Origin: Stieleria magnilauensis
GTDB lineage: Bacteria > Planctomycetota > Planctomycetia > Pirellulales > Pirellulaceae
Reading direction: 5' to 3'
Length of the DNA stretch: 64,000 nt
Assembly (NCBI GenBank): GCA_007753675.1
Contig: CP036432.1
Coordinates: forward strand, 8,000,233 to 8,064,232
The notes under the pieces were generated by a model. It had not been told where the DNA came from. It searched no databases and saw only the letters and a list, made by a program, of their open reading frames with translations. The position numbers and the translations under genes are program-made. Within the stretch, counting starts at the first letter, position 1. Each line of letters opens with the position of its first letter. Shown piece by piece: positions 10,603 through 36,572 of this stretch.

Positions 10603-12399
10603 CTATGTAATGAACAGCTTGCCCTTCGTGCCGGGCGGAGCAATCGACGCCAGCCGATACGCCATGATCACCGCGACGATGGGGTCAATTTTGTCGGGGC
10701 TGTTGGCTTTATCGGGGATGCAGAAATAACCCGCCGAACGCTTGCCATTAACCAGCACCATGTTTCCCGCCGCCCACGTCAGCAGCCCGTTGCCTTCGTG
10801 GCGAACCCGCCCCAGTTTCAAGTCGGCCAGGAACTTCGTAATCGGTTCGGTCCACATGCCGGCGTTTTGGAAAAACTTCACCGTCTCGATGCCCTCGGGT
10901 TCCAGCGACTGCGCGAAGTCTCGCGAGTTTGCCGGGTCATACGCCCACGATCGAATCTGGTTGTCCTGGTACTCGCGGATCACTTCCTGACGCATCTCAT
11001 TGATTTCCATCGACGACACACGCAGCAGTTTTTGATCGACCCAATCGGACCACGGTTCCTTTGACAGATCACGCTCGGCGGAGGTGTTGATAAACCCGAC
11101 GCTATCGACCTCATACCGGTAGAGCGGCCGGCCAGTCGGCTCGCCGGTCTTGGTGTCAATCTCATCTTCGCCCGTGTCGAACCGGGCACAGAACCCCAGC
11201 GCCGCCAAGTCGTCTTGGCCGCCCATGTCCCACGCGCCGCAGATCGCGTCTGCGTCAGACCAGTCCGAAAACTCGCCCTGTGCCGCTCGCCAGGTCTCAT
11301 CATGGATTGCTTTTTCCAGCGACGAAACCAAGACGTTGCAGTGATAGCGTTTGAAGACGTGCAAGCCGGCGGGGCTTAGCTGTGCATCGTCGGCCTGCTC
11401 CTGCATAAATTCCCGCTTTGGCGTCACCGGATAGTTCGGGTTGGCCTTGGCCCAATTCTTCTCGTCGAACGGGTCATCCTCTGGGATCTCGCCCGTGCCC
11501 TCGCACTTGGGACATCCCTTGATGGCTCCGCAATCACACGGGCGTTTTTCGTCCAGTCGAGCGATGAAGCAAAAGCGGTGATCGCCCGGCGGGTTATCCA
11601 GTTTGTAGCCGTCCAGCACGCGACAGGACAGCGTATCAACTTCAATCCACAGCTTCGACTGATCGTCTCCCGCCGTCGTGATCGTGATGATCAGCGGCTG
11701 ACGACGTGACCCGTGAGCGGTATTTAATTTGTCCCAAAGCCCCTTGTGATGGGTGCCCCATTCGTGGATTTCATCGAGCACCGCAGCGTGAACGTTGAAC
11801 CCGTCCGACGTTCGCGAATCGGACCCGAGTGGTTTGAAGAAACTGTTTGGCTGATAGGCCCCCTTCTTCGTCACGATCGACTTGGCCAAGACCGTGACTT
11901 GCTTACGGACCTCTGGCGACCCGTCAGCCATCGCTTTGGCCAGCCCGTGGACAATCTTGGCCTGATCCTCTTTCGTGGCGGCACAATAAATCTGTGCCCC
12001 CTTTTCCAGCGGATCGTCGCACGTCAGCAGCAGCAGCCCGATACCCGCCGCCACGGTTGACTTGCCCCACTTTCTGCCGCAAGTGATGTAAGCGTGGCGA
12101 AACCGCCGGCAACCGTCCGCACGTCTCCAACCCATCAGGCACCAGACGATGAAAGCCTGGTTGTCCGTCAGTTCGACCGGCTTGTCGGCCCACTCGCCCT
12201 CGACGTGACGCAGGCAAGCCGGAAACCACATGATCGCGAGCGACGCCTTTTGTTCGTCGAAGTAGTGCCCGCGAGTGTGTGCGTGCTCCAAGTCGTAGAC
12301 GTGTCGCTCGACCGCTTGGCGAACCCGTCGCCCGGTGACGATTGACCCGTCCAAAACCCCGTCGATGTATCGCTGAACTTGCTGCTTAGGTGCTTCCAT
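10603..12399 (-). CDS. terL: Terminase large subunit
   Basis: 598 residues from the ATG at 12397-12399, which overlaps the small-subunit stop by 14 bases; the longer upstream frame is only a shadow of that gene. ATPase: Walker A GRKWGKST (residues 108-115), Walker B AAVLDEIHE (205-213), then IITITTAGDD as coupling motif. Nuclease: GAWDMGGQDDLAA with the first metal-binding Asp near 391. Between the two domains is an unusual cysteine cluster CxCx5CxxC (residues 288-299), probably a zinc knuckle. It packages DNA into the prohead through the portal encoded downstream. Confidence 0.95.
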   Translation of the reverse strand: MEAPKQQVQRYIDGVLDGSIVTGRRVRQAVERHVYDLEHAHTRGHYFDEQKASLAIMWFPACLRHVEGEWADKPVELTDNQAFIVWCLMGWRRADGCRRFRHAYITCGRKWGKSTVAAGIGLLLLTCDDPLEKGAQIYCAATKEDQAKIVHGLAKAMADGSPEVRKQVTVLAKSIVTKKGAYQPNSFFKPLGSDSRTSDGFNVHAAVLDEIHEWGTHHKGLWDKLNTAHGSRRQPLIITITTAGDDQSKLWIEVDTLSCRVLDGYKLDNPPGDHRFCFIARLDEKRPCDCGAIKGCPKCEGTGEIPEDDPFDEKNWAKANPNYPVTPKREFMQEQADDAQLSPAGLHVFKRYHCNVLVSSLEKAIHDETWRAAQGEFSDWSDADAICGAWDMGGQDDLAALGFCARFDTGEDEIDTKTGEPTGRPLYRYEVDSVGFINTSAERDLSKEPWSDWVDQKLLRVSSMEINEMRQEVIREYQDNQIRSWAYDPANSRDFAQSLEPEGIETVKFFQNAGMWTEPITKFLADLKLGRVRHEGNGLLTWAAGNMVLVNGKRSAGYFCIPDKANSPDKIDPIVAVIMAYRLASIAPPGTKGKLFIT

Positions 12400-12778
12400 C
12401 TCGCGCCGCGATAAGATCGGCCATTGATGGGGCACCGTCGCCGCTTGGCTTGCTTTGCTCCGACTCGTCCTTGGGTGCTTCGCGGGCAAGATCGGCCGCG
12501 AGTCGGTACAGCCGGTCCCAGTAGGCAGTAAAAGACAGCCGGGCCTCTTTGTCGGTTGGCTCGCCTTCGATCGCGGCAAGCAGTGTTTCGCAGACGCTAG
12601 ACAGTCGCCCGGCAACGTTGCCAGCATCAATGCCAAGATCAGCCAAAGACGTGACCACCGACCCGGTAGCGTGCTCAGCCGCATCGCTGCGACACGCCTG
12701 TAGCGTCCCGAGCATCTCTTTCTCTGCGTCTGTTTTTTTGTTGTGGCCACCGCTCCGCTGCCCTTTTCGTCCTGCCAT
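12386..12778 (-). CDS. terS: Terminase small subunit
   Basis: 130 residues from ATG 12778, preceded by GAGG and AGAGGG; a start at 12826 would overlap the upstream gene. The protein opens MAGRKGQRSGGHNKKTDAEK, the basic Gly-rich start common in P27-like small subunits, followed by helices (GNVAGRLSSVCETLLAAIEG, FTAYWDRLYRLAADL) and an acidic, Ser/Pro-rich tail. It recognises the packaging site and loads the large subunit. The position next to terL supports the assignment. Confidence 0.8.
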   Translation of the reverse strand: MAGRKGQRSGGHNKKTDAEKEMLGTLQACRSDAAEHATGSVVTSLADLGIDAGNVAGRLSSVCETLLAAIEGEPTDKEARLSFTAYWDRLYRLAADLAREAPKDESEQSKPSGDGAPSMADLIAARDGST

Positions 12779-12788
12779 CCCTCTGGCC

Positions 12789-13241
12789 TCATTGATGTTC
12801 AGTTCTCTTGACGCAAAGCTTGACATTCATGTCAAAGCACGGCTTCGCGCCCATGTAGACGTGATTCCCGAAGACGTTTATCAGGCTCCACATTTGCCAT
12901 TTCGACCATCCGTCATCGTCTTCCACTGGCTTCGTGTATCCCGCATCCCAAAGATTGCCGCTCATTACTGACTCAAACCATTCGCGATGCACTTGGCGTC
13001 CGTGTTCGGTCAATCGCACATAGACGTAATCGTTCAGGTTGAAGGGAACGCCGCGCTCTGACGTGTATTCCTTGGGTCGCTCGTTTTCTCTAGCCCATTC
13101 TGAAAACCGCTCCACCGCCTCAGCAGCCTCCGCAAATGCCTTGCGAATGCCGATGGTGGGGTCATGGCTACCAAGCTGGACCTTTTTTCCAGTTGGCGTT
13201 ATCCATGTGTCCGATGCACTCTTTCCGGTGTGTACCGCCAT
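12789..13241 (-). CDS. Conserved phage protein of unknown function
   Basis: 150 residues. The central part reads DYVYVRLTEHGRQVHREWFE and the C-terminal part WQMWSLINVFGNHVYMGA followed by PCFDMN. I recognise this two-part pattern (Y-V-V-L-T-G, then W-x-L-W-x-L-M-x-I-F-G-x-x-x-Y-M-G) from small proteins of many unrelated phages, where no function is known. It lies between the HNH nuclease and terS and overlaps the HNH stop by one base. Confidence 0.78.
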   Translation of the reverse strand: MAVHTGKSASDTWITPTGKKVQLGSHDPTIGIRKAFAEAAEAVERFSEWARENERPKEYTSERGVPFNLNDYVYVRLTEHGRQVHREWFESVMSGNLWDAGYTKPVEDDDGWSKWQMWSLINVFGNHVYMGAKPCFDMNVKLCVKRTEHQ

Positions 13242-13609
13242 TACTCTGCCTCTTTTCTCAACTGTTCCAAAAAACCGTCCAGCTCCATCCGCCCCATGCC
13301 CTCAATCTCAACGTGGCACCGCTGGCAAACCGGCACCAAGTTCGCCCGATCAAGCCGCAAGTGTTCCGCATCTTCGAACCGCTCGATGTGGTGCATGTGC
13401 TCGGCTACGCTCGTGAGCTTGCCCCGCGCGACGCACACCACGCACTCTTCCAATTCGTCCCTCAGTCGTTCGCTCAGTGTTCGCCATCGGTGATCATAGC
13501 CCCGCTCTTTCGTCGTCCGTCGGTGTGTCGGTGCCGGCGGCTTGCACTCGTCGCAAACCTTCCGGCCTTGCACGATCGCCCCGCATCGGCAAAGTCTCGC
13601 GCTAGTCAC
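13241..13609 (-). CDS. HNH endonuclease beside the terminase genes
   Basis: 122 residues from GTG 13609, which overlaps the upstream stop; an ATG at 13645 would overlap that gene by 44 bases. An N-terminal CxCx9CxxC cluster (residues 7-22) and a second ring (C57, C60, C95, C98) frame the HNH motif: EHMHHIERF, then NLVPVCQRCHVEIE. Such HNH proteins next to terminases (HK97 gp74 type) stimulate cos cleavage by the terminase, so a packaging role is more likely than homing. Confidence 0.88.
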   Translation of the reverse strand: MTSARLCRCGAIVQGRKVCDECKPPAPTHRRTTKERGYDHRWRTLSERLRDELEECVVCVARGKLTSVAEHMHHIERFEDAEHLRLDRANLVPVCQRCHVEIEGMGRMELDGFLEQLRKEAE

Positions 13610-14813
13610 CGAGCCAGCCCACGCCCAATTCATCCGGTGGCACAAACGTCCCTGCCATGATCGCGATCGAATCCCCTGCCGCCATCGTGAAGATGCCCGG
13701 ATCCGCCGTCAGCGTGACCGTCTTGGTATCACCGACATAGTTCTTGATTCGCCCGACTGCCTTTTGTGTGCTCGTGGTTTGATCCGTCACAACAATAATT
13801 GCGTTGTTGTAGGCGTCGTTATCTGACGACCCGGCGGTGAGCGTGAACACCGTCTGGCTGGTCAGCGTCGCGATCGTCGTGCTTTGCAACAGTTGCGGAG
13901 GCGACCCGCCCGCCCCAGTCGTCCATGCCGCATCACCGCGGTCGCGGATCTCTTCCAGCGTGTCGGTCGACGATGACCACCCCGCGCCCTTGATGTCGGT
14001 CAGGTGCGTAATGATCGTTGATTGATTCGCCGCAGTTGCGTCACCGCCACCACCTCCGCCGCTTGGGCCGTTTTCGAGTGCCAGCGTCGTAAACTGCCAT
14101 CCGCTCGACCCGTCGTCCTCGATCGACGTGGCGAGCTTGTCAGTCACAACCTGGATCGCATCGACCACCGTGTCCACTGTCGCCAGTGCCGCAACAGTCG
14201 CCGGTGCATAGTTCGCCTGCGCGGTTGCGAGCGTCACGCCGTCGCTGCCCGTGATCGTGTCCAGATCCGCTTGGGCTGTCGCAAGTGCCGAAGCCGTCGC
14301 AAGGGCACTGGTTGCCGTTGCCAGCTTTGTATCCAAATCCAACCCGCCCGCATCACTCACGGGCAATCCACCTGCGGCGTCGGCGGCTGCGTTGGGGAGT
14401 GCGGTGCCAGCGAGTCCGCGCGTCGTCGACCACGGCGATTCGATCAGGGCATCATTGAGTGCCGACGCCCTGAAACAAAACGTCTCCGATCGCCATGCCA
14501 AAACCCCGGTGCAAATGCCAGTAAAGTAGCCATAGCCCTCGGTGTCGTTGTTGATCGACGCACCACCGGTTGCCGGGATCTCGATCTTGTACATGCCGTC
14601 GCCAACATGTGTCCAATCGTAATCGCCTGCCGTTGTCGGCGTGACTGCGGTTTGCGTAATCACCCCCGCGGGCGTGACGAAATTCCACACGAGATCCATG
14701 CCCGCCGCGTTGTAAGCAATCGCCGTTTCGCGGGTCTTGAAATCCGTGTCGTCAGTCAGCGGCAAAATATTGACCGGCACTTCAACCGCTGTGTCTACGT
14801 CTAGGTACATCAT
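13602..14813 (-). CDS. Probable virion fibre or tail-associated structural protein
   Basis: 403 residues. The N-terminal 100 form a beta domain starting YLDVDTAVEVPVNILPLTDD, similar in style to N-terminal adaptor domains of phage fibres. The middle (160-240) is an Ala/Thr/Leu heptad region (LATATSALATASALATAQAD) likely to form a trimeric coiled coil, then a Gly stretch (GPSGGGGGG) and a C-terminal beta domain. It overlaps the next upstream gene by four bases. Its place before the terminase is unusual for a fibre gene. Confidence 0.65.
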   Translation of the reverse strand: MMYLDVDTAVEVPVNILPLTDDTDFKTRETAIAYNAAGMDLVWNFVTPAGVITQTAVTPTTAGDYDWTHVGDGMYKIEIPATGGASINNDTEGYGYFTGICTGVLAWRSETFCFRASALNDALIESPWSTTRGLAGTALPNAAADAAGGLPVSDAGGLDLDTKLATATSALATASALATAQADLDTITGSDGVTLATAQANYAPATVAALATVDTVVDAIQVVTDKLATSIEDDGSSGWQFTTLALENGPSGGGGGGDATAANQSTIITHLTDIKGAGWSSSTDTLEEIRDRGDAAWTTGAGGSPPQLLQSTTIATLTSQTVFTLTAGSSDNDAYNNAIIVVTDQTTSTQKAVGRIKNYVGDTKTVTLTADPGIFTMAAGDSIAIMAGTFVPPDELGVGWLGD

Positions 14814-16450
14814 CCGATTATCGCCGCCATTTGGTTGTAGTAGTAATCTGCGCCGCCCGGCGCATCGCTAGACAATCCCGTTGCGTAGCCAAGTTTTTCT
14901 GTTCCAGTCACATCAGCGGCACCGGTGTGATAGAGAACAAAGTTCTCGCCATCGTCCCAGAGGTATGGATCGCTCTTGTATTCCCCATCAAACGCACCCA
15001 CGCCGTGCCCATTGGTTAGCAGTGGATTTTTGTTGACGCGACTGAATGAAATCAGGTCAAAGGACTCCGCCATCGCTAATTCGTGCGGGTATGTACTGGC
15101 GTTGGAAACCGCGAAGTGGTGCAGCTTGTTGTATCCAGCGTACAGCAACAGATAGTGCGACTCGCCTAGCTTGTATATCTGCGGGTGCGTCAAATCCGAG
15201 CCTTCGAACCCGACCCCCGTCGGCGACATGACCGGCGAGTTAAACGAGTCATACGTCCACGAAATGCCGTCTGATGACGTGTAACGAACTAGATCGCCCT
15301 CCAGCCCCGCGATCGAGTCAGTTCGCCGATCAACAATCATCACCCATTCGCCAGACTCCTCGATCACGGCAGGCGCGCGAACATAGGCACCTGATGCACC
15401 AGTGATAACGGGGCTGGATGCGTGCTCCGTAAGCGATGACAAATCCGACCCGGTAAAGAGTCGGATAGTCCCGTTCCCTGTCGCGTCATCGAGGTACACA
15501 TACCACGTCGACCCGACATAAACCAGTTCCACGGCCCGGATCGTCGACCCTGCTATGATCTGCCCCTGATCTGTCCATGTGTGCGGACTGCCTGTTGTTG
15601 ACGTGTAATATCGAACATTCCCGGCGACCTCCGCAACAATCATGTGATTCGCCGCGAGCCCCGTCTTTGCTGCGCCTGCCACAGCGCATCCACGATTGCC
15701 TGTCGAAAGCAACTCGGCAGTGTCCGCGTACTCGCTATTGGGGTAACGCTCAGACATCCAGTTGTGAAGATCAGTGATGTCTGAATTAGTCACGGCGACA
15801 TCGTACAAGACGAAATCCGCCAAGTGAAAAGCCGCCCCGATATCTGTCGTGGGGTGGTTGCCAATCACAAGGTCGCCCGACACTGCGGTATCAATCACCC
15901 CGGACGCGCTCACCTGGAACGCAAACTCACCGTCTATCCACACCTGCAAATTCGTGCCGTTGTGGCGAACGATGAGAGTCATCCACCCGGATGCAGTAGG
16001 AGAGTCATCCGCAACCGAGAGAGCGGTTGATGGTGCAGCAGCAAGACGGCAAAAAGCCTGAAACGCTCCGCTGAGCACTCGCAACGCAACGGTGGCCGCA
16101 TTGGTCGCCACTTTGTTAAACAGCCATGTCCCGCTAGATGCCGCCTCTAAGTTTGTTAGTCGCACACGCATTGCGTATGTAACGGCTGAGCTATTGATCG
16201 TCGAGTCTGCACTGACCGTCAATCGGCCATCACCACCAGCTGCGGCAAAGCCCACGAACGGCATGTCGGAATAATACTCTGATCCATCCTGGTATGTCGG
16301 ATGGTCTGTGCCGCTACCCGCTGCATCATTGCCCTCGCCGGATGAGTCAGCCCATGACGTAACATCATCGCCGTCAGACAACGCGGTAAGCGTTGACGGG
16401 TCAAGCCAAACCACGCAGCCTGAAATGTCTGTAGGGTCTGCAATGGGCAT
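14810..16450 (-). CDS. Putative receptor-binding/tailspike protein: LamG-like domain plus beta-propeller
   Basis: 546 residues. Residues 1-230 fit a concanavalin/LamG jelly roll: GCVVWLDPSTLTALSDGDDV, TWLFNKVATNAATVALRVLS, then LQVWIDGEFAFQV and AAFHLADFVLYDVAVTNSDI. Residues 250-540 have repeated blade-like strands (WVMIVDRRTDS, YLLLYAGYN, FVLYHTGA) like five-bladed propellers of the GH43/sialidase-like group. Carbohydrate binding or cleavage at the host surface is plausible. I cannot assign catalytic residues with confidence. No signal peptide. Confidence 0.65.
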   Translation of the reverse strand: MPIADPTDISGCVVWLDPSTLTALSDGDDVTSWADSSGEGNDAAGSGTDHPTYQDGSEYYSDMPFVGFAAAGGDGRLTVSADSTINSSAVTYAMRVRLTNLEAASSGTWLFNKVATNAATVALRVLSGAFQAFCRLAAAPSTALSVADDSPTASGWMTLIVRHNGTNLQVWIDGEFAFQVSASGVIDTAVSGDLVIGNHPTTDIGAAFHLADFVLYDVAVTNSDITDLHNWMSERYPNSEYADTAELLSTGNRGCAVAGAAKTGLAANHMIVAEVAGNVRYYTSTTGSPHTWTDQGQIIAGSTIRAVELVYVGSTWYVYLDDATGNGTIRLFTGSDLSSLTEHASSPVITGASGAYVRAPAVIEESGEWVMIVDRRTDSIAGLEGDLVRYTSSDGISWTYDSFNSPVMSPTGVGFEGSDLTHPQIYKLGESHYLLLYAGYNKLHHFAVSNASTYPHELAMAESFDLISFSRVNKNPLLTNGHGVGAFDGEYKSDPYLWDDGENFVLYHTGAADVTGTEKLGYATGLSSDAPGGADYYYNQMAAIIG

Positions 16451-17869
16451 TCAGTTCGCCCCCTCAATCTCGTAATGCCAAAAGATCGGCGTCGGCTCGT
16501 ATCGATTAACAGACAGATCCGCTTTCTGCTGCACGAAAACCAACTCCTGTACGTCCGGCAGCCAACACAAACCGACCTGTTCACGTTTGGGCTTGAACAC
16601 CGATGCGTTGCCGTCACGCCTGCCGCCCCATCCGTACATTTCGCCGTCGAGGTACGGCAGGTTGACGACAATCTCCTGCGTGTGCCGCACTGCGGACGGG
16701 CTGCGTCCGTCGAGTGTTTTGACGTACTCGGAAAGCGGGAAAACCAACAGCCGCAATTCGTACCCGTTGGCCGCGTATCCGCCGATTTGATTTCCGTTTT
16801 TATCTCTCGGCTTGTAGTCCACCCAGCCGAGCCCAACGCCGACCAACGCAATCAGATTGTCACCGACAATCACCGCGTCCACGATGTCGTCAGAGTGCTT
16901 GGCGTGCTGGTAAGGGGCTGAATAGCTATCCCAGATCGCGGGATTGTTCAGCCGGATGCTCTCGCCGTAATCGACCCCATCGTCTGTCGGCAACAGATAC
17001 GGCAGCGCGTTTGCGCCGTTCCAAAACGCCAGCGGTTCGGCCTCCATCGTGTCGAAGTCGAGCGCAAACGCAGGTGGCCCGAACGATGTTGACCCGCTGC
17101 CAGTCATCGCAACGCCGCCGACAATCGCCTCGCATCGCGAGAGCTTCGGGTGTGCTGCTTTCCAGCTATCCGGTAGCTCAACGATGTATTTAGAGATCCT
17201 GTTGTGCATTGCGTATCGGTTGCGGCCCGTGTCCGTCAGTTCGCCGCCGATGTCTGTGATTCGAAACAGTTCCCTCCCGCTGAAATCCAGATTGCACCGG
17301 CCCAAGTCCAACTGATCGTCCTCGGCAGCGGTATTGTAAAATTCAAACAGCGTGAAATAGAGCTTGCCATCAATCACCGTCAGCCCTTCGGCCTGTCCTT
17401 CGCTCGGATCACTGTCATTGATCCCGCTAATCGTTGACGTTGACGCAATCGCTGCCTTTCTCGCCTTGGGGATAGCTTTCGTTGTCGTGGCGATTCTAGG
17501 CTCGGGAAATTGCAGCAGCGCCACCGCATCAGACAGCCCGCCGTATTGACCGCCCTGCAAAATTGGTCGCTTGCCCCGAACATAGAACCGCCGATCGCCT
17601 GCATAGGCAACGCGAGCCCCAGACGCACCGATCAAGCATACGCCAGCTTCGTCGTAGCAGGTCGTGCAGCCGATGTATTGCAGCGAGATCCCATCGCCTG
17701 GCGTATCCGGTTCCGGCTCCACCGACTCCAACGCATCCAGCCGCGATTCAATCGCGTCGAGTCGCGCAGTGATCCCCGAATCGTCGTACACCGGCACGTC
17801 GATCGTCACCGGCACCGTTTGTGCCGCCGCGACCGTTGCGAGGGCGAGCCATAGTAGGAGTGTTTTCAT
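16451..17869 (-). CDS. Exported phage protein with coiled coil and large C-terminal domain, function unknown
   Basis: 472 residues. A clear Sec signal peptide (MKTLLLWLALATVAAAQ) is followed by a heptad segment (TARLDAIESRLDALESVEPE), a proline linker, a CTTCYDEAGVC cysteine patch near 70, and a long beta-rich domain with repeated strand-turn units (YVGDNLIALVG-type), possibly a propeller. The phage protein would be exported by the host. Adsorption blocking, lysis support or surface modification are possible; none is shown. Confidence 0.72.
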   Translation of the reverse strand: MKTLLLWLALATVAAAQTVPVTIDVPVYDDSGITARLDAIESRLDALESVEPEPDTPGDGISLQYIGCTTCYDEAGVCLIGASGARVAYAGDRRFYVRGKRPILQGGQYGGLSDAVALLQFPEPRIATTTKAIPKARKAAIASTSTISGINDSDPSEGQAEGLTVIDGKLYFTLFEFYNTAAEDDQLDLGRCNLDFSGRELFRITDIGGELTDTGRNRYAMHNRISKYIVELPDSWKAAHPKLSRCEAIVGGVAMTGSGSTSFGPPAFALDFDTMEAEPLAFWNGANALPYLLPTDDGVDYGESIRLNNPAIWDSYSAPYQHAKHSDDIVDAVIVGDNLIALVGVGLGWVDYKPRDKNGNQIGGYAANGYELRLLVFPLSEYVKTLDGRSPSAVRHTQEIVVNLPYLDGEMYGWGGRRDGNASVFKPKREQVGLCWLPDVQELVFVQQKADLSVNRYEPTPIFWHYEIEGAN

Positions 17870-17875
17870 GCGTCC

Positions 17876-18250
17876 TTAAATCCCCAACCCACTAACATCG
17901 TGCACGTCAAATGCTCGAATCATGCACGATCCGTGCCCGACTCGCACCCACGCATCGCGTGATAATTTTTCGTAGCCAAACAAACGCCCGTCGGCATACC
18001 GCCGGCGTACTGTATCTGCGTTGCATCCGATCTCGTCGGCCAATTGTTCGGTCGTCATGACCGCCGGTGTCGGTTCGACCGGATCGGCAATCATGACCGA
18101 TACGTTACCGACGCTTTGTGTTTGATGCACCGTCGGCGAAACCGATGCGTGACGTCTGTCCCACGTGATCAACACCAGGATTCCGATCGTCGTCGCCAAA
18201 AAGACACCGCAATTGGCAAACCACGCGATAATCTTTTCATTGGTCGTCAT
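17876..18250 (-). CDS. Membrane-anchored helix-turn-helix protein
   Basis: 124 residues from ATG 18250; the longer frame upstream overlaps the next gene. Residues 9-31 are one hydrophobic helix (FANCGVFLATTIGILVLITW), then a Ser/Thr/Val/Pro linker, then MTTEQLADEIGCNADTVRRR at about 66-85, an excisionase/MerR-type helix-turn-helix with the usual R-x-A-x-G-R-L-F continuation. A DNA-binding domain fixed to the membrane is odd for a gene in the lysis region. Confidence 0.7.
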   Translation of the reverse strand: MTTNEKIIAWFANCGVFLATTIGILVLITWDRRHASVSPTVHQTQSVGNVSVMIADPVEPTPAVMTTEQLADEIGCNADTVRRRYADGRLFGYEKLSRDAWVRVGHGSCMIRAFDVHDVSGLGI

Positions 18251-18464
18251 CGTTGGTCTCTTCGAGAGTTTCGACTTGTTGACGTAGTTTTTTGTTCTCG
18301 CCTCGCAATTCGTCATTCCGTTTCAGAACGGCCCAAAAGACACGGACGAAAAAGATCCACATCGAGCCGATCGCAACGTATGTTGCGGCTAAGACGGTTT
18401 TGACAAATCCCAATTCTGACGGATCATTGTTTTGCCCCAGCATTTCATCGTTTCGCCTCGACAC
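18237..18464 (-). CDS. Small membrane protein with coiled coil, holin- or spanin-like candidate
   Basis: 75 residues from GTG 18464. One transmembrane helix (TVLAATYVAIGSMWIFFVRV) is followed by a charged heptad coiled coil (RNDELRGENKKLRQQVETLE) and an acidic tail. The end overlaps the next gene by 14 bases. Size, topology and place among other small membrane proteins suggest a lysis function, but no holin family is recognisable. Confidence 0.6.
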   Translation of the reverse strand: MSRRNDEMLGQNNDPSELGFVKTVLAATYVAIGSMWIFFVRVFWAVLKRNDELRGENKKLRQQVETLEETNDDDQ

Positions 18465-18559: not shown

Positions 18560-18778
18560 CTACTTCTCCGACGTGGACCGCTCCGGTACGAGACGTTCGA
18601 TCAACGACACATGCCGCTCGATCGCCGCGCTGTACTCCGCACGCATCGCCGCGCGTTCGACCTGTGCGTCATTCAGAACGACGTAAAGCAACGCAAACGC
18701 CAGCCCGCCAAACCCAAGCGGCTGAACCAGTTTGACCCACCACGGGCCGACGGGCTGTTGTTGATCGTCTTCGTTCAT
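18560..18778 (-). CDS. Small membrane protein, putative holin
   Basis: 72 residues with a soluble polar N-terminus, one transmembrane helix (VQPLGFGGLAFALLYVVL) and a long amphipathic, charged C-terminal helix. Its ATG overlaps the upstream stop by four bases. The layout is close to single-pass phage holins or pinholins. Function inferred from topology only. Confidence 0.6.
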   Translation of the reverse strand: MNEDDQQQPVGPWWVKLVQPLGFGGLAFALLYVVLNDAQVERAAMRAEYSAAIERHVSLIERLVPERSTSEK

Positions 18779-19047
18779 TTATCCAGGTCGAGTACGGCTT
18801 GCGGGCCACCGACGGCGAACGCTCGCAGTTCGTCATCCGTTGCGCTTTGGATCTCGTCGATTACTTCCCGACGAGCTTCGCGAAGTTCATCCCCGGCCAA
18901 GCCGGCTTTCCGCAACGCTTGCGTCACGCGGACGCGAACAGCAAACGGTCGACGTCTGATTGCAGCGACGCGAGCTTCTTCCGTGTCGCCACATGAATCG
19001 AGCCATTTGTACAACAGGTCAAAAACCAGATCCCAAGGGATATTCAT
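18775..19047 (-). CDS. Small helical phage protein, function unknown
   Basis: 90 residues, predicted mostly helical and amphipathic (VTQALRKAGLAGDELREARR), with no membrane segment. It overlaps the putative holin gene by four bases and follows the exported protein gene by six bases, so it belongs to the same late cluster. No family recognised. Confidence 0.65.
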   Translation of the reverse strand: MNIPWDLVFDLLYKWLDSCGDTEEARVAAIRRRPFAVRVRVTQALRKAGLAGDELREARREVIDEIQSATDDELRAFAVGGPQAVLDLDK

Positions 19048-19053
19048 TGAGTT

Positions 19054-19959
19054 TTACCTACCAAAAAGGAGTTTTCTGCCGGGGAACCAAATGGTGTTGC
19101 GTTGTTGTGACGCAGCGGGTTGCTGCGATGGGCTGCGGATCGGGCATTGTCCGTCCGGGCAGTATTCGTCGGACGCTTCGCCATCGAATGACAATTTCAG
19201 AGACGCCGTCGCGGACGGACTGACGCGAGCAGCCGCCGGCGCGGACGTGTAGGGATTAATCGCTAAGCTGGAATGATTGAGGTTGTGAAGATTCCACAAC
19301 CAATTCCAGTTCAACCCTTCCAGTTGCGATCGCTGATAGACGTACCGATGATCGTCTTCCGGTGTGGTCAAATGGAGCTTTGCCCACGAAGGCGTCTTGG
19401 GGCTCATGTCCGCGTAGAGATTACCGTCGTAGCGTGCTTTGATTTCGCGTTTCAACTCGTCGGGCGTCTTGAGCCGCCGGCCAAAGGACACTACCGGCTT
19501 TGAGACGGAAGCATTCCCATCACTGACAACATGCTCAACTTTCGCCGGCGAAACGACTTTGATATTTCCTTGTTCAGCACGCGTGGATTGCTGGTCGATG
19601 ATGATTCGGACGACAGTTTCGCCGGGGCTTTGGTTTTCACCGGCTCCTTTCTCATTGTCTCCAATCGCCGATTGAATTCCTTTCGCTTCCGTTTGGATGC
19701 TTTCAAGTTCTTCAATACGTTGCTGCAGCTGGAAGATTCGTTTGGCATTAGGGTCGTCCTTTGGTGGATCGCAAGACTTCGGTGCTTCGAGAATCTTGAC
19801 TCGAGTATCGAGGTCGCAAATCTGTTGATCGTGCTCATTGACCCTTTCGGTCAATAATTGAAGCGGTGCCGGCGTGTACGTGTCGGCGGCAACCGATGGA
19901 AGGGTGAGTAGCAGCAGGACGACGATCGCCAGTGCTGCGATTGTTTTTTGGTTTCTCAT
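19054..19959 (-). CDS. Exported phage protein, function unknown
   Basis: 301 residues from ATG 19959, chosen because it opens a good signal peptide (MRNQKTIAALAIVVLLLLTL, then PSVAA). Residues 30-110 are coiled coil with a CDPPK break. A conserved-looking block near 190-240 (PDELKREIKARYDGNLYADM, then SWAKLHLTTPEDDHRYVYQR) and a CPDGQCP turn follow. It lies next to the 43-residue membrane protein and the matrixin gene. Probably periplasmic; role unknown. Confidence 0.72.
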   Translation of the reverse strand: MRNQKTIAALAIVVLLLLTLPSVAADTYTPAPLQLLTERVNEHDQQICDLDTRVKILEAPKSCDPPKDDPNAKRIFQLQQRIEELESIQTEAKGIQSAIGDNEKGAGENQSPGETVVRIIIDQQSTRAEQGNIKVVSPAKVEHVVSDGNASVSKPVVSFGRRLKTPDELKREIKARYDGNLYADMSPKTPSWAKLHLTTPEDDHRYVYQRSQLEGLNWNWLWNLHNLNHSSLAINPYTSAPAAARVSPSATASLKLSFDGEASDEYCPDGQCPIRSPSQQPAASQQRNTIWFPGRKLLFGR

Positions 19960-19963
19960 TTCG

Positions 19964-20095
19964 CTATCGGGAATCGAGGTACAGGACGAATACGATGATT
20001 GGGAGTGCAAGCAAGTAAACTCCGACCGCAAACGTGAATCCGACGAATGGCAGTGAAAACAGATCATTGATCAGCTTGTAGAATGCATCGCTCAT
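19964..20095 (-). CDS. 43-residue membrane protein, holin-like candidate
   Basis: The ATG at 20093-20095 shares a base with the matrixin stop (TGATG) and the TAG at 19964-19966 lies five bases before the next gene. The product is nearly all hydrophobic: NDLFSLPFVGFTFAVGVYLL then ALPIIVFVLYLDSR. That makes one long or two short membrane helices. Position between two lysis-region genes and exact coupling support real expression. Confidence 0.68.
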   Translation of the reverse strand: MSDAFYKLINDLFSLPFVGFTFAVGVYLLALPIIVFVLYLDSR

Positions 20096-21042
20096 CACAC
20101 TTTCGGTTTTCGTGCGAGAATGAATTCACCGAGTGAACGATCGCCGTCGAATGCTTCGAAGGATCCGCGGAACACCAGCTCGTTCACCGGTACGTCCGGC
20201 TCGTCGGGCTCATCCGGCGTGTGTGGCATCGGACGGTATTGATTGTCCAGCGACGGTGGCGCCGATCCGCTCAGCGAATAACCCAGCCCGCGGGCCTGGC
20301 CAAGGTCGGTGTTGTTCGGATACCCGCGCCGGCCGAGCGATTTCGAGTGGATCGACGGGTACATGAGTGCCGAACCATCGCGGTTGTGCGGCAATCCCAA
20401 CGCGTGCCCGATCTCGTGAGACGCGACGGTCGACAGAAAATTGAGCGACCACGTCCGATCGTTGTCGTAGCGTTGTTCCAGCACCGCGCGACAGTTGGAT
20501 TGCGCAAGATACGACCACGCGAGCGTCGAACCACCGAGACGACCCAGCCCGGCCCAAATGTGTGCACCGGTCCGACCACGCTGCACAACCGCCGTCAAAT
20601 CGCTCAGTGCGTAGTTCCAGTTGTTGATAGCACCGATGAATGCTTTCAACGTGTCATCGGATGTCATCCCCGGCGCTTTGTCGAACGCCAAACCGAATTT
20701 GATGTTTCGCCGGCAAGCCGTCGGCCAGTTCGCCTCTTGCTTGGCCGACATCGCGGCCCCAGGAACCTCGAAATCAGGGAACCCACAACGCGGCATCGCA
20801 AACAGCCTTTCAGTCGCCGGGCCAATGTCGCCGTCGGCCACGGCTAAACGTCCATGCTCTTGAAGCGTCAGTTCGTCCAGCGTTGGCCGCAAGAAATCTT
20901 GGTACGATCGCACCGCCGTTGCGAATTCCTTCGACGTCAGCGTGATCTTGTCCAGGTCGGATTCTTCAATCCCGACGGGCATTTCCGTATTGTGAAAATG
21001 CCCTTTCTCCCACAGAAACGACTTCAATTCGGTGCCGTTCAT
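20095..21042 (-). CDS. Matrixin-type zinc metalloprotease with peptidoglycan-binding-like pro-domain and cysteine switch
   Basis: 315 residues. Catalytic site: HEIGHALGLPH (209-219), the metzincin zinc motif HExxHxxGxxH, with the Met-turn at ALMYPS (M227). PRCGFPD at 84-90 matches the cysteine-switch consensus PRCGxPD of matrix metalloproteinases, where the Cys occupies the zinc to keep the enzyme latent. Residues 35-83, ending GDIGPATERLFAM, fit the helical PG_binding_1 pro-domain that precedes this motif in the family. The C-terminus has a D/E/P linker (PHTPDEPDEPDVPV) and a short strand-rich end. No signal peptide, so release probably depends on a holin. It sits where an endolysin is expected, and no other lysin is visible. 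Confidence 0.88.
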   Translation of the reverse strand: MNGTELKSFLWEKGHFHNTEMPVGIEESDLDKITLTSKEFATAVRSYQDFLRPTLDELTLQEHGRLAVADGDIGPATERLFAMPRCGFPDFEVPGAAMSAKQEANWPTACRRNIKFGLAFDKAPGMTSDDTLKAFIGAINNWNYALSDLTAVVQRGRTGAHIWAGLGRLGGSTLAWSYLAQSNCRAVLEQRYDNDRTWSLNFLSTVASHEIGHALGLPHNRDGSALMYPSIHSKSLGRRGYPNNTDLGQARGLGYSLSGSAPPSLDNQYRPMPHTPDEPDEPDVPVNELVFRGSFEAFDGDRSLGEFILARKPKV

Positions 21043-21671
21043 TCACTGGCCTCGTTGATGATCGAATTGGTTTTTGACACTACGGCCAAAGCCTCGCCGG
21101 GCGTGATCGATTCACTTCCACGGGCGGAATACGCTAAGCCGTACCGAACGGCTTCCAGCGTGTTCGCAATCACGGTCGCGTTGCTCAACCCGCCTTCTTG
21201 CATTTTCGCGACCAAGTAATCGCTCAGCTTGCGGCGAAACGGCTGCCAGTTCTCATCAATGACGGAATCGGCCGCGGAGTGCAGGACGTGGTAAACGGTT
21301 GCCGTGTTGACCTTGCCATCGATCGCGCCGTCGCGGACCGTTTCGAAAACGAGGGCGTATTTTTGAGCCCCCTTGGGATCGCCGATCGACGCCGACCATT
21401 CCGCCGCGTCTGCGGAGATACCCGCCGGCGGTTCGGCCGGCTGCTCGGGATCGGGCTTGGGCTCATCCGGCGATGTCGGCGGCGTCTCGTCACCGTCGCG
21501 CAGATCCACAACCGTCTCGATCCGGACCAGCGACGGAACCCCATCGGTATCCAAGACGGTCAGAAAATAGCCCGCGTCGGTGATCGTCAACGGTGGCGGT
21601 CCGGCGATGACACCGATCGACCCGACGAGAATGGCCAGCCCCAGCAAAATGTGTTGCGCAATTCGGTTCAT
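21039..21671 (-). CDS. Exported phage protein with proline-rich linker, function unknown
   Basis: 210 residues from ATG 21671, which overlaps the upstream TGA. A signal peptide or anchor (HILLGLAILVGSIGVIAG) is followed by a short domain, a linker TPPTSPDEPKPDPEQPAEPP and a helical C-terminal domain (WQPFRRKLSDYLVAKMQEGG, then NATVIANTLEAVRYGLAY). Its stop overlaps the matrixin start by four bases, so the two are likely co-translated. It could be a periplasmic partner of the protease. That is inference from coupling. Confidence 0.72.
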   Translation of the reverse strand: MNRIAQHILLGLAILVGSIGVIAGPPPLTITDAGYFLTVLDTDGVPSLVRIETVVDLRDGDETPPTSPDEPKPDPEQPAEPPAGISADAAEWSASIGDPKGAQKYALVFETVRDGAIDGKVNTATVYHVLHSAADSVIDENWQPFRRKLSDYLVAKMQEGGLSNATVIANTLEAVRYGLAYSARGSESITPGEALAVVSKTNSIINEASE

Positions 21672-36447: not shown

Positions 36448-36499
36448 ACAAACGCCAGGCGTTGCTTTGCGGGCCTCACGGCTACCGCCCTCTGCTGAG

Positions 36500-36572
<73 letters not shown>

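Follow-up and report, generated by a model that had tools for sequence, protein, structure and literature searches.

The window (the whole 64,000-nt stretch analyzed) carries at positions 1 to 36518 part of the second of two tandem prophage copies, which span positions 7947821 to 8036750 of the host chromosome. The copies have a period of 44,455 bp, lie at a tRNA-Glu gene, and are identical except for differences at the attachment site; they reflect either a double lysogen or the way in which phage DNA was assembled. PHROG matches identified tape measure, capsid, head protease, portal, terminase, and HNH genes in the prophage. Together with the two-copy boundaries at tRNA-Glu, these genes bear out the proposal of a preliminary description, made from the DNA letters alone, that the protease gene considered here is phage encoded. 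This gene shares 4 bp with an upstream partner gene. It is one of a series of genes on the same strand that are spaced no more than 95 nt apart and continue down to the terminase gene. In window coordinates and in the order of transcription, the relevant genes are as follows, with the attachment core listed last:

21039..21671, minus strand, partner protein, exported or anchored, 210 amino acids (aa) from the ATG of MNRIAQ
20095..21042, minus strand, pro-matrix metalloproteinase (pro-MMP)-like zinc protease, ATG start, 315 aa, PF00413, without visible signal peptide
19054..20067, minus strand, protein with a hydrophobic segment at residues 39 to 65, downstream of the protease, without Pfam match
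18775..19047, minus strand, 90-aa protein of the cassette, weakly resembling positions 1536 to 1964 of viral contig L014 (26% in a two-sequence alignment; not found by BLAST)
18560..18778, minus strand, 72-aa protein, candidate holin-like, hydrophobic segment at residues 17 to 35, no family match
18237..18464, minus strand, 75-aa protein with a coiled-coil tail, hydrophobic segment at residues 29 to 47 (score 1.83), weak spanin and coiled-coil matches only
17876..18316, minus strand, 146-aa protein with one hydrophobic segment (residues 29 to 52)
16451..17869, minus strand, 472-aa protein, probably exported, hydrophobic N-terminus (segment 3 to 23)
14810..16450, minus strand, 546-aa Laminin_G_3 protein (E = 7.8e-9)
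13602..14813, minus strand, 403-aa protein, no match
10603..12792, minus strand, terminase large subunit (phrog_9, 1.7e-110)
36499..36518, no strand, 20-nt attachment core in tRNA-Glu(TTC), two bases differing between the copies, right end of the second prophage copy

Several proteins encoded between the protease and the terminase have N-terminal or single hydrophobic segments, and the ORF for the 75-aa protein has 80 nt in common with the one that follows. In family searches, none of the small membrane proteins of the operon matched a holin family. The lysis genes of phage lambda also precede the terminase gene, and the location of the protease gene before the terminase gene, in an operon running on to it, agrees with the lysis position originally ascribed to it. 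Past the attachment site, outside the prophage, 41570 to 43873 matches phrog_32805 (4e-163) with a weak helicase match, and 37702 to 41202 matches phrog_1012 (M13 protein IV, 9e-18).

The protease ORF lies on the minus strand; the plus frame across the same positions is interrupted by stops. The motifs first taken to indicate a zymogen, i.e., HExxHxxGxxH, a Met-turn, and PRCGFPD, are all present in this ORF, which matches Pfam Peptidase_M10 (PF00413) with an E value of 6.1e-10 and 39.6 bits (cut-off, 24). Its parts, all on the minus strand, are as follows:

20743..21042, predicted prodomain, residues ~1 to 100, a helical bundle plus switch peptide (DSSP of the model), superposing with pro-MMP prodomains
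20773..20793, switch peptide PRCGFPD, residues 84 to 90, with Cys86, aligning with PRCGVPD of pro-MMP-3 in a profile search
20713..20715, Cys110, an extra conserved cysteine
20491..20493, Cys184, a second extra conserved cysteine
20386..20418, zinc site HEIGHALGLPH, residues 209 to 219, based on motif and conservation
20356..20370, Met-turn ALMYP, residues 225 to 229, in the context SALMYPS with Met227

We searched 5.8 billion proteins and obtained 95 at E ≤ 1e-3, the window protein itself counted. In these 95 proteins, C86, C110, H209, E210, H213, and G216 are invariant, and C184 (94/95, the exception being P0094), H219 (94/95), P229 (93/95), and M227 (90/95) are nearly so. Against a mean column identity of 26% among the 95 proteins, Cys86 is thus as strictly conserved as the zinc ligands. 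The exact PRCG.PD sequence is present in 52 of the 95, although C86 is found in all. The metzincin pattern HExxHxxGxxH/D is kept in 94 of them, with P0066 departing after HEIGHVLG, and 94 also match PF00413 at E ≤ 0.01. A profile search returned 204 proteins at E ≤ 1e-6, and we examined 30 further relatives among the 120 matches listed; in 29 of these, a Cys is aligned at the switch position, while the 30th, P0120, has a KRC nearby by eye. Thus, a prodomain-type Cys is common to all 125 examined database relatives, to 124 of them by alignment. Coincidental occurrence of the motifs was ruled out by the 95 database proteins and the structural matches. The protein had also been described as having a peptidoglycan-binding-like helical segment ahead of the switch. 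The helices were recovered in the predicted structure; PF01471 (PG_binding_1) was not listed for the window protease at E ≤ 1 in the Pfam scan, and with the limit at E ≤ 0.01 it is found in 8 of the 95 relatives (best E value, 1.3e-6).

The full-length protease was modeled with a pLDDT of 93.7 and a pTM of 0.85. The model has a matrixin catalytic-domain fold, and the prodomain helices (residues 3 to 12, 27 to 32, 38 to 50, 52 to 63, and 75 to 82 by DSSP) lie in the orientation of those in pro-MMPs; AlphaFold has seen pro-MMPs, and the model was output without coordinates or metal. Within this output, a Cys86 remote from the zinc, named beforehand as counterevidence, did not emerge. Over residues 1 to 260, the predicted prodomain and catalytic fold resemble those of the animal enzymes pro-MMP-3 (1slm) and pro-MMP-9 (5ue3), which we take to belong to MEROPS M10A, and the superposition extends over the whole length with PRCG.PD in register. 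The phage protein shares PRCGxPD, HExxHxxGxxH, and the ALMYP Met-turn with these enzymes. Unlike them, it is phage encoded, lacks a visible signal peptide, and with 315 aa is too short for a hemopexin domain. It also lacks the S-loop: in a sequence alignment, the structural zinc site (His-Asp-His-His) of this region was not found in the window protease when we used the ligand positions of MMP-3, and Trp176 (89/95) and Gln190 (93/95) occupy the places of the His residues. Ser after the third zinc His is a family mark of matrixins. The window protein has Asn at this position instead, and the 95 relatives have N in 34, T in 23, V in 16, I in 11, L in 5, S in 2, D in 2, Q in 1, and a gap in 1.

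The phage protease also differs from the animal enzymes in its two additional conserved cysteines, Cys110 and Cys184. These may pair in a disulfide bond, which, if formed, would point to work outside the cytoplasm. The three conserved cysteines would also fit a likeness to pro-MMPs that is structural only, with Cys86 of a metzincin without latency binding something else, e.g., Cys110 or Cys184. We regard this as very improbable given the predicted whole-length superposition with pro-MMPs and the in-register PRCG.PD. Based on its sequence and predicted fold, the protein is very probably a cysteine-switch zymogen, as proposed for it at the outset.

Neither the hydrophobicity of the protease, whose most hydrophobic 19-mer scores 0.79, nor that of its relatives points to export. 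A crude hydrophobicity test for signal peptides flagged 1 of the 95 N-termini, unconvincingly, and the family thus seems to be without signal peptides. An ordinary secreted bacterial MMP was ruled out by the lack of a visible signal peptide and by the phage operon.

The PRCGxPD switch has been described for mammalian MMPs and is presumed in other animals, plants, and fungi (PMC6949598). The bacterial MMP karilysin is described there as using an aspartate switch in a 14-residue propeptide, unlike the Cys-bearing prodomain of ~100 residues here, and cysteine switches are reported for bacterial pappalysins and promyroilysin (PMC6949598). Mirolysin and promyroilysin are bacterial metzincins with a cysteine switch like the window protease, but belong to other metzincin families, have short propeptides without a PRCGxPD helical prodomain, and do not figure there as phage proteins (PMC6949598). 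According to a survey of bacterial MMPs, the genes are widespread in bacteria; its main text is without the words phage, virus, or cysteine (PMC12587646). Among the matches listed in the open-licence literature searched by title and abstract, we found no phage-encoded cysteine-switch MMP. By structure, the best match in BFVD was A0A6J5RTD2 of an uncultured Caudovirales phage (TMq 0.67, 16%). Matrixins of insect viruses (granulovirus, ascovirus, and nudivirus) are also virus encoded and among the BFVD matches, but are from viruses of animals and have 12 to 20% identity.

Relatives of the protease are encoded on five viral contigs, here designated L013, L014, L015, L049, and L050. The window gene and these five relatives are thus found in a phage context, and three of the five keep the switch Cys, within PRCGFPD in L049 and L013 and RKCWVPD in L014; the switch Cys is absent in L015 and doubtful in L050. 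The relative in L049 is located between the portal and terminase genes, that in L014 upstream of the tape-measure gene, those in L015 and L050 a few kb beyond the gene for the major capsid protein, and that in L013 near helicase and ParB genes. The positions of four of them (L014, L015, L050, and L049) in head-tail gene regions would fit an entry protease that the virion carries in latent form, in its tail or at the head-tail joint, and that becomes active upon contact and cuts through a layer of surface protein to let the DNA in. We consider this unlikely: the window gene lies in an operon with hydrophobic-segment proteins ahead of the terminase, the adjoining partner has a signal or anchor helix that would be unusual for a virion part, and two of the four relatives in question (L015 and L050) have an absent or doubtful switch.

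A further possibility is that the protease is cargo (a moron) that benefits the lysogen apart from the phage cycle, for instance in nutrition or competition. The host genome has nine PF00413 matches, of which two are the prophage copies, and bacterial MMPs, besides being widespread, are thought to act on animal-derived substrates (PMC12587646). Against this stand the lack of recognizable signal peptides in the family, the tight one-strand operon with its overlapping start, and the phage contigs with relatives, in which BLAST finds nothing in common with the prophage except the protease (plus the partner in L049). The distribution within the phylum argues in the same direction. Some protease match was found in 187 of 392 phylum genomes (≤5 candidates per genome scored), and we rejected these as family members since, among the matches listed, mostly only the zinc-site stretch was covered; among the same matches, only the two copies of the host (residues 4 to 316) cover both the prodomain and the catalytic part. 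Altogether, a cargo function appears highly unlikely.

The partner has an N-terminal hydrophobic helix (signal or anchor), short strands, a Pro-rich linker, and a six-helix C-terminal domain, with a block of pLDDT > 90 from residue 81 in the model. A homolog is encoded just upstream of the protease relative in L049 (33%, 1.5e-16, BLAST), and a gene of similar architecture occupies this place in L014, with 24% in an alignment, which is below BLAST detection; no homolog was found in L013, L015, or L050 by BLAST. A database search with the partner gave nine matches, its own protein included. Longest contigs of 4551 and 8367 bases are alike for two of the other partner matches and two protease matches, while six differ.

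Such a two-gene unit with an exported partner, present in the window, in L049, and weakly in L014, together with the alike contigs of the database matches, could also mean that the metzincin and its partner, by modifying the envelope, make it susceptible to a different lytic agent without acting as the lysin themselves. There is a precedent in Listeria prophages, where the metzincin of the Mtz-Tim pair is phage linked, adjoins an exported partner, and eases lysis (PMC8235301). In contrast to the proteins described here, that metzincin has a predicted Sec signal and its partner is a TIMP-like lipoprotein, and the main text of the report is without the words cysteine or zymogen (PMC8235301). Homology to Mtz-Tim was rejected, and the resemblance is by analogy only. 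A sensitizing role of this kind seems distinctly unlikely to us.

No peptidoglycan hydrolase was recognized in 55 prophage proteins using Pfam (22 families matched; some left-arm genes lay outside the scan), in line with the earlier remark that no endolysin gene is visible. The same held for the L014 phage, with 34 of 35 chosen ORFs scanned and 13 families matched, and for the L013 phage, with 61 of 62 scanned and 22 families matched; Amidase_2 was found in none of five records. A Pfam scan could miss diverged endolysins and the viral contigs may be fragments; ORFs of ~400 aa without family exist in the prophage, e.g., 16297 to 17538 of L009, and the endolysins of such phages may simply be unrecognized.

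We compared the host genome with 14 control genomes. The host has 68 matches to PF07596 versus none in the controls, and expansion of this family is a mark of planctomycetes; the host is therefore planctomycete-like, as had been supposed. The transpeptidase PF00905 is absent in the host and present in 10 of the 14 controls. MurG has no match in the host, and all 14 controls match, 9 of them above the cut-off. For MurE, the host has 52.9 and 38.5 bits in one ORF (cut-off, 257.3), and for Mur-ligase it has one weak match of 28.5 bits. The lack of recognizable MurG and penicillin-binding transpeptidase in the host speaks in favor of a protease used in place of an endolysin. PF00905 is strongly split by family, occurring in none of the 11 genomes of the host family (host included) and in 23 of 79 genomes of the class; since it is missing in 56 of the 79, lacking it does not necessarily imply lacking peptidoglycan. 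Peptidoglycan has been detected chemically in several planctomycetes, with genes found there by sensitive search (PMC4432640), and has been reported in planctomycetes elsewhere (PMC5147048). A phage of a deep-sea planctomycete is reported to be released chronically without host lysis (PMC10945688), and lysis thus cannot be assumed here.

From the computed fold, conservation, and gene order, and with no endolysin recognized, we infer how the protease may act, from zinc ligation by Cys86 to the timing, release, activation, substrate, and role in lysis. A temperate phage of a planctomycete-like host would make an MMP-type zymogen in which the helical prodomain covers the cleft of the active site, with the catalytic zinc capped by Cys86 of PRCGFPD. 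The enzyme would stay latent in the cytoplasm, where the active form would attack phage and host proteins. It has no visible signal peptide and is coencoded with small membrane proteins and the exported partner; late in infection, when the inner membrane is opened, it would pass through the lesions and reach the envelope. Loss of the prodomain or unlatching of the thiolate bond would then permit cutting of an envelope protein and, in place of or beside an endolysin, help progeny release. The position of the gene and the missing signal fit an endolysin-like protein, while the neighbors were not identified as holins; cleavage of peptidoglycan itself is unlikely because of the protease fold. We give a roughly even chance to use of the protease as a latent envelope protease at lysis, possibly instead of an endolysin. 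Only tentatively do we extend this to a general proposition, namely, that phages of hosts with little or no canonical peptidoglycan might lyse by means of a protein-wall lysin. This would be a cysteine-switch pro-MMP that stays inactive in the reducing cytoplasm, escapes when the membrane is breached, and loses its latch in the envelope; with its exported partner it would make up a dedicated two-gene lysis unit. If this is true, the MMP zymogen design exists, perhaps anciently, as a phage lysin. A role in lysis would make the protease a proteolytic counterpart to endolysins and would help to show how planctomycete phages exit and what keeps the envelope together in a host without recognizable MurG and penicillin-binding transpeptidases. 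The database and phage relatives widen the known range of the cysteine-switch latency device, and the protease offers a single-chain model of latency that should be easy to express.

Some minor observations concern the relatives. L049 (2498 to 4075), L015 (10602 to 12002), and L050 (12301 to 13680) encode a common 459- to 525-aa protein near the protease, with 24 to 39% identity and, by eye, a CxxCH motif in the L049 and L015 copies. The relative without switch Cys in L015 (9497 to 10582) has, by eye, a hydrophobic stretch within a long extension at its N-terminus. Within the class of the host, a 331-aa ORF (G194:C34:2872-3153) has a prodomain match (profile 12 to 119, 6e-7) and no catalytic match among the matches listed. 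The LGGSTLAWS..C..EQRY..W segment of P0094 (327 aa) follows the zinc helix and the Met-turn; this protein either has its catalytic domain circularly permuted or is an assembly chimera.
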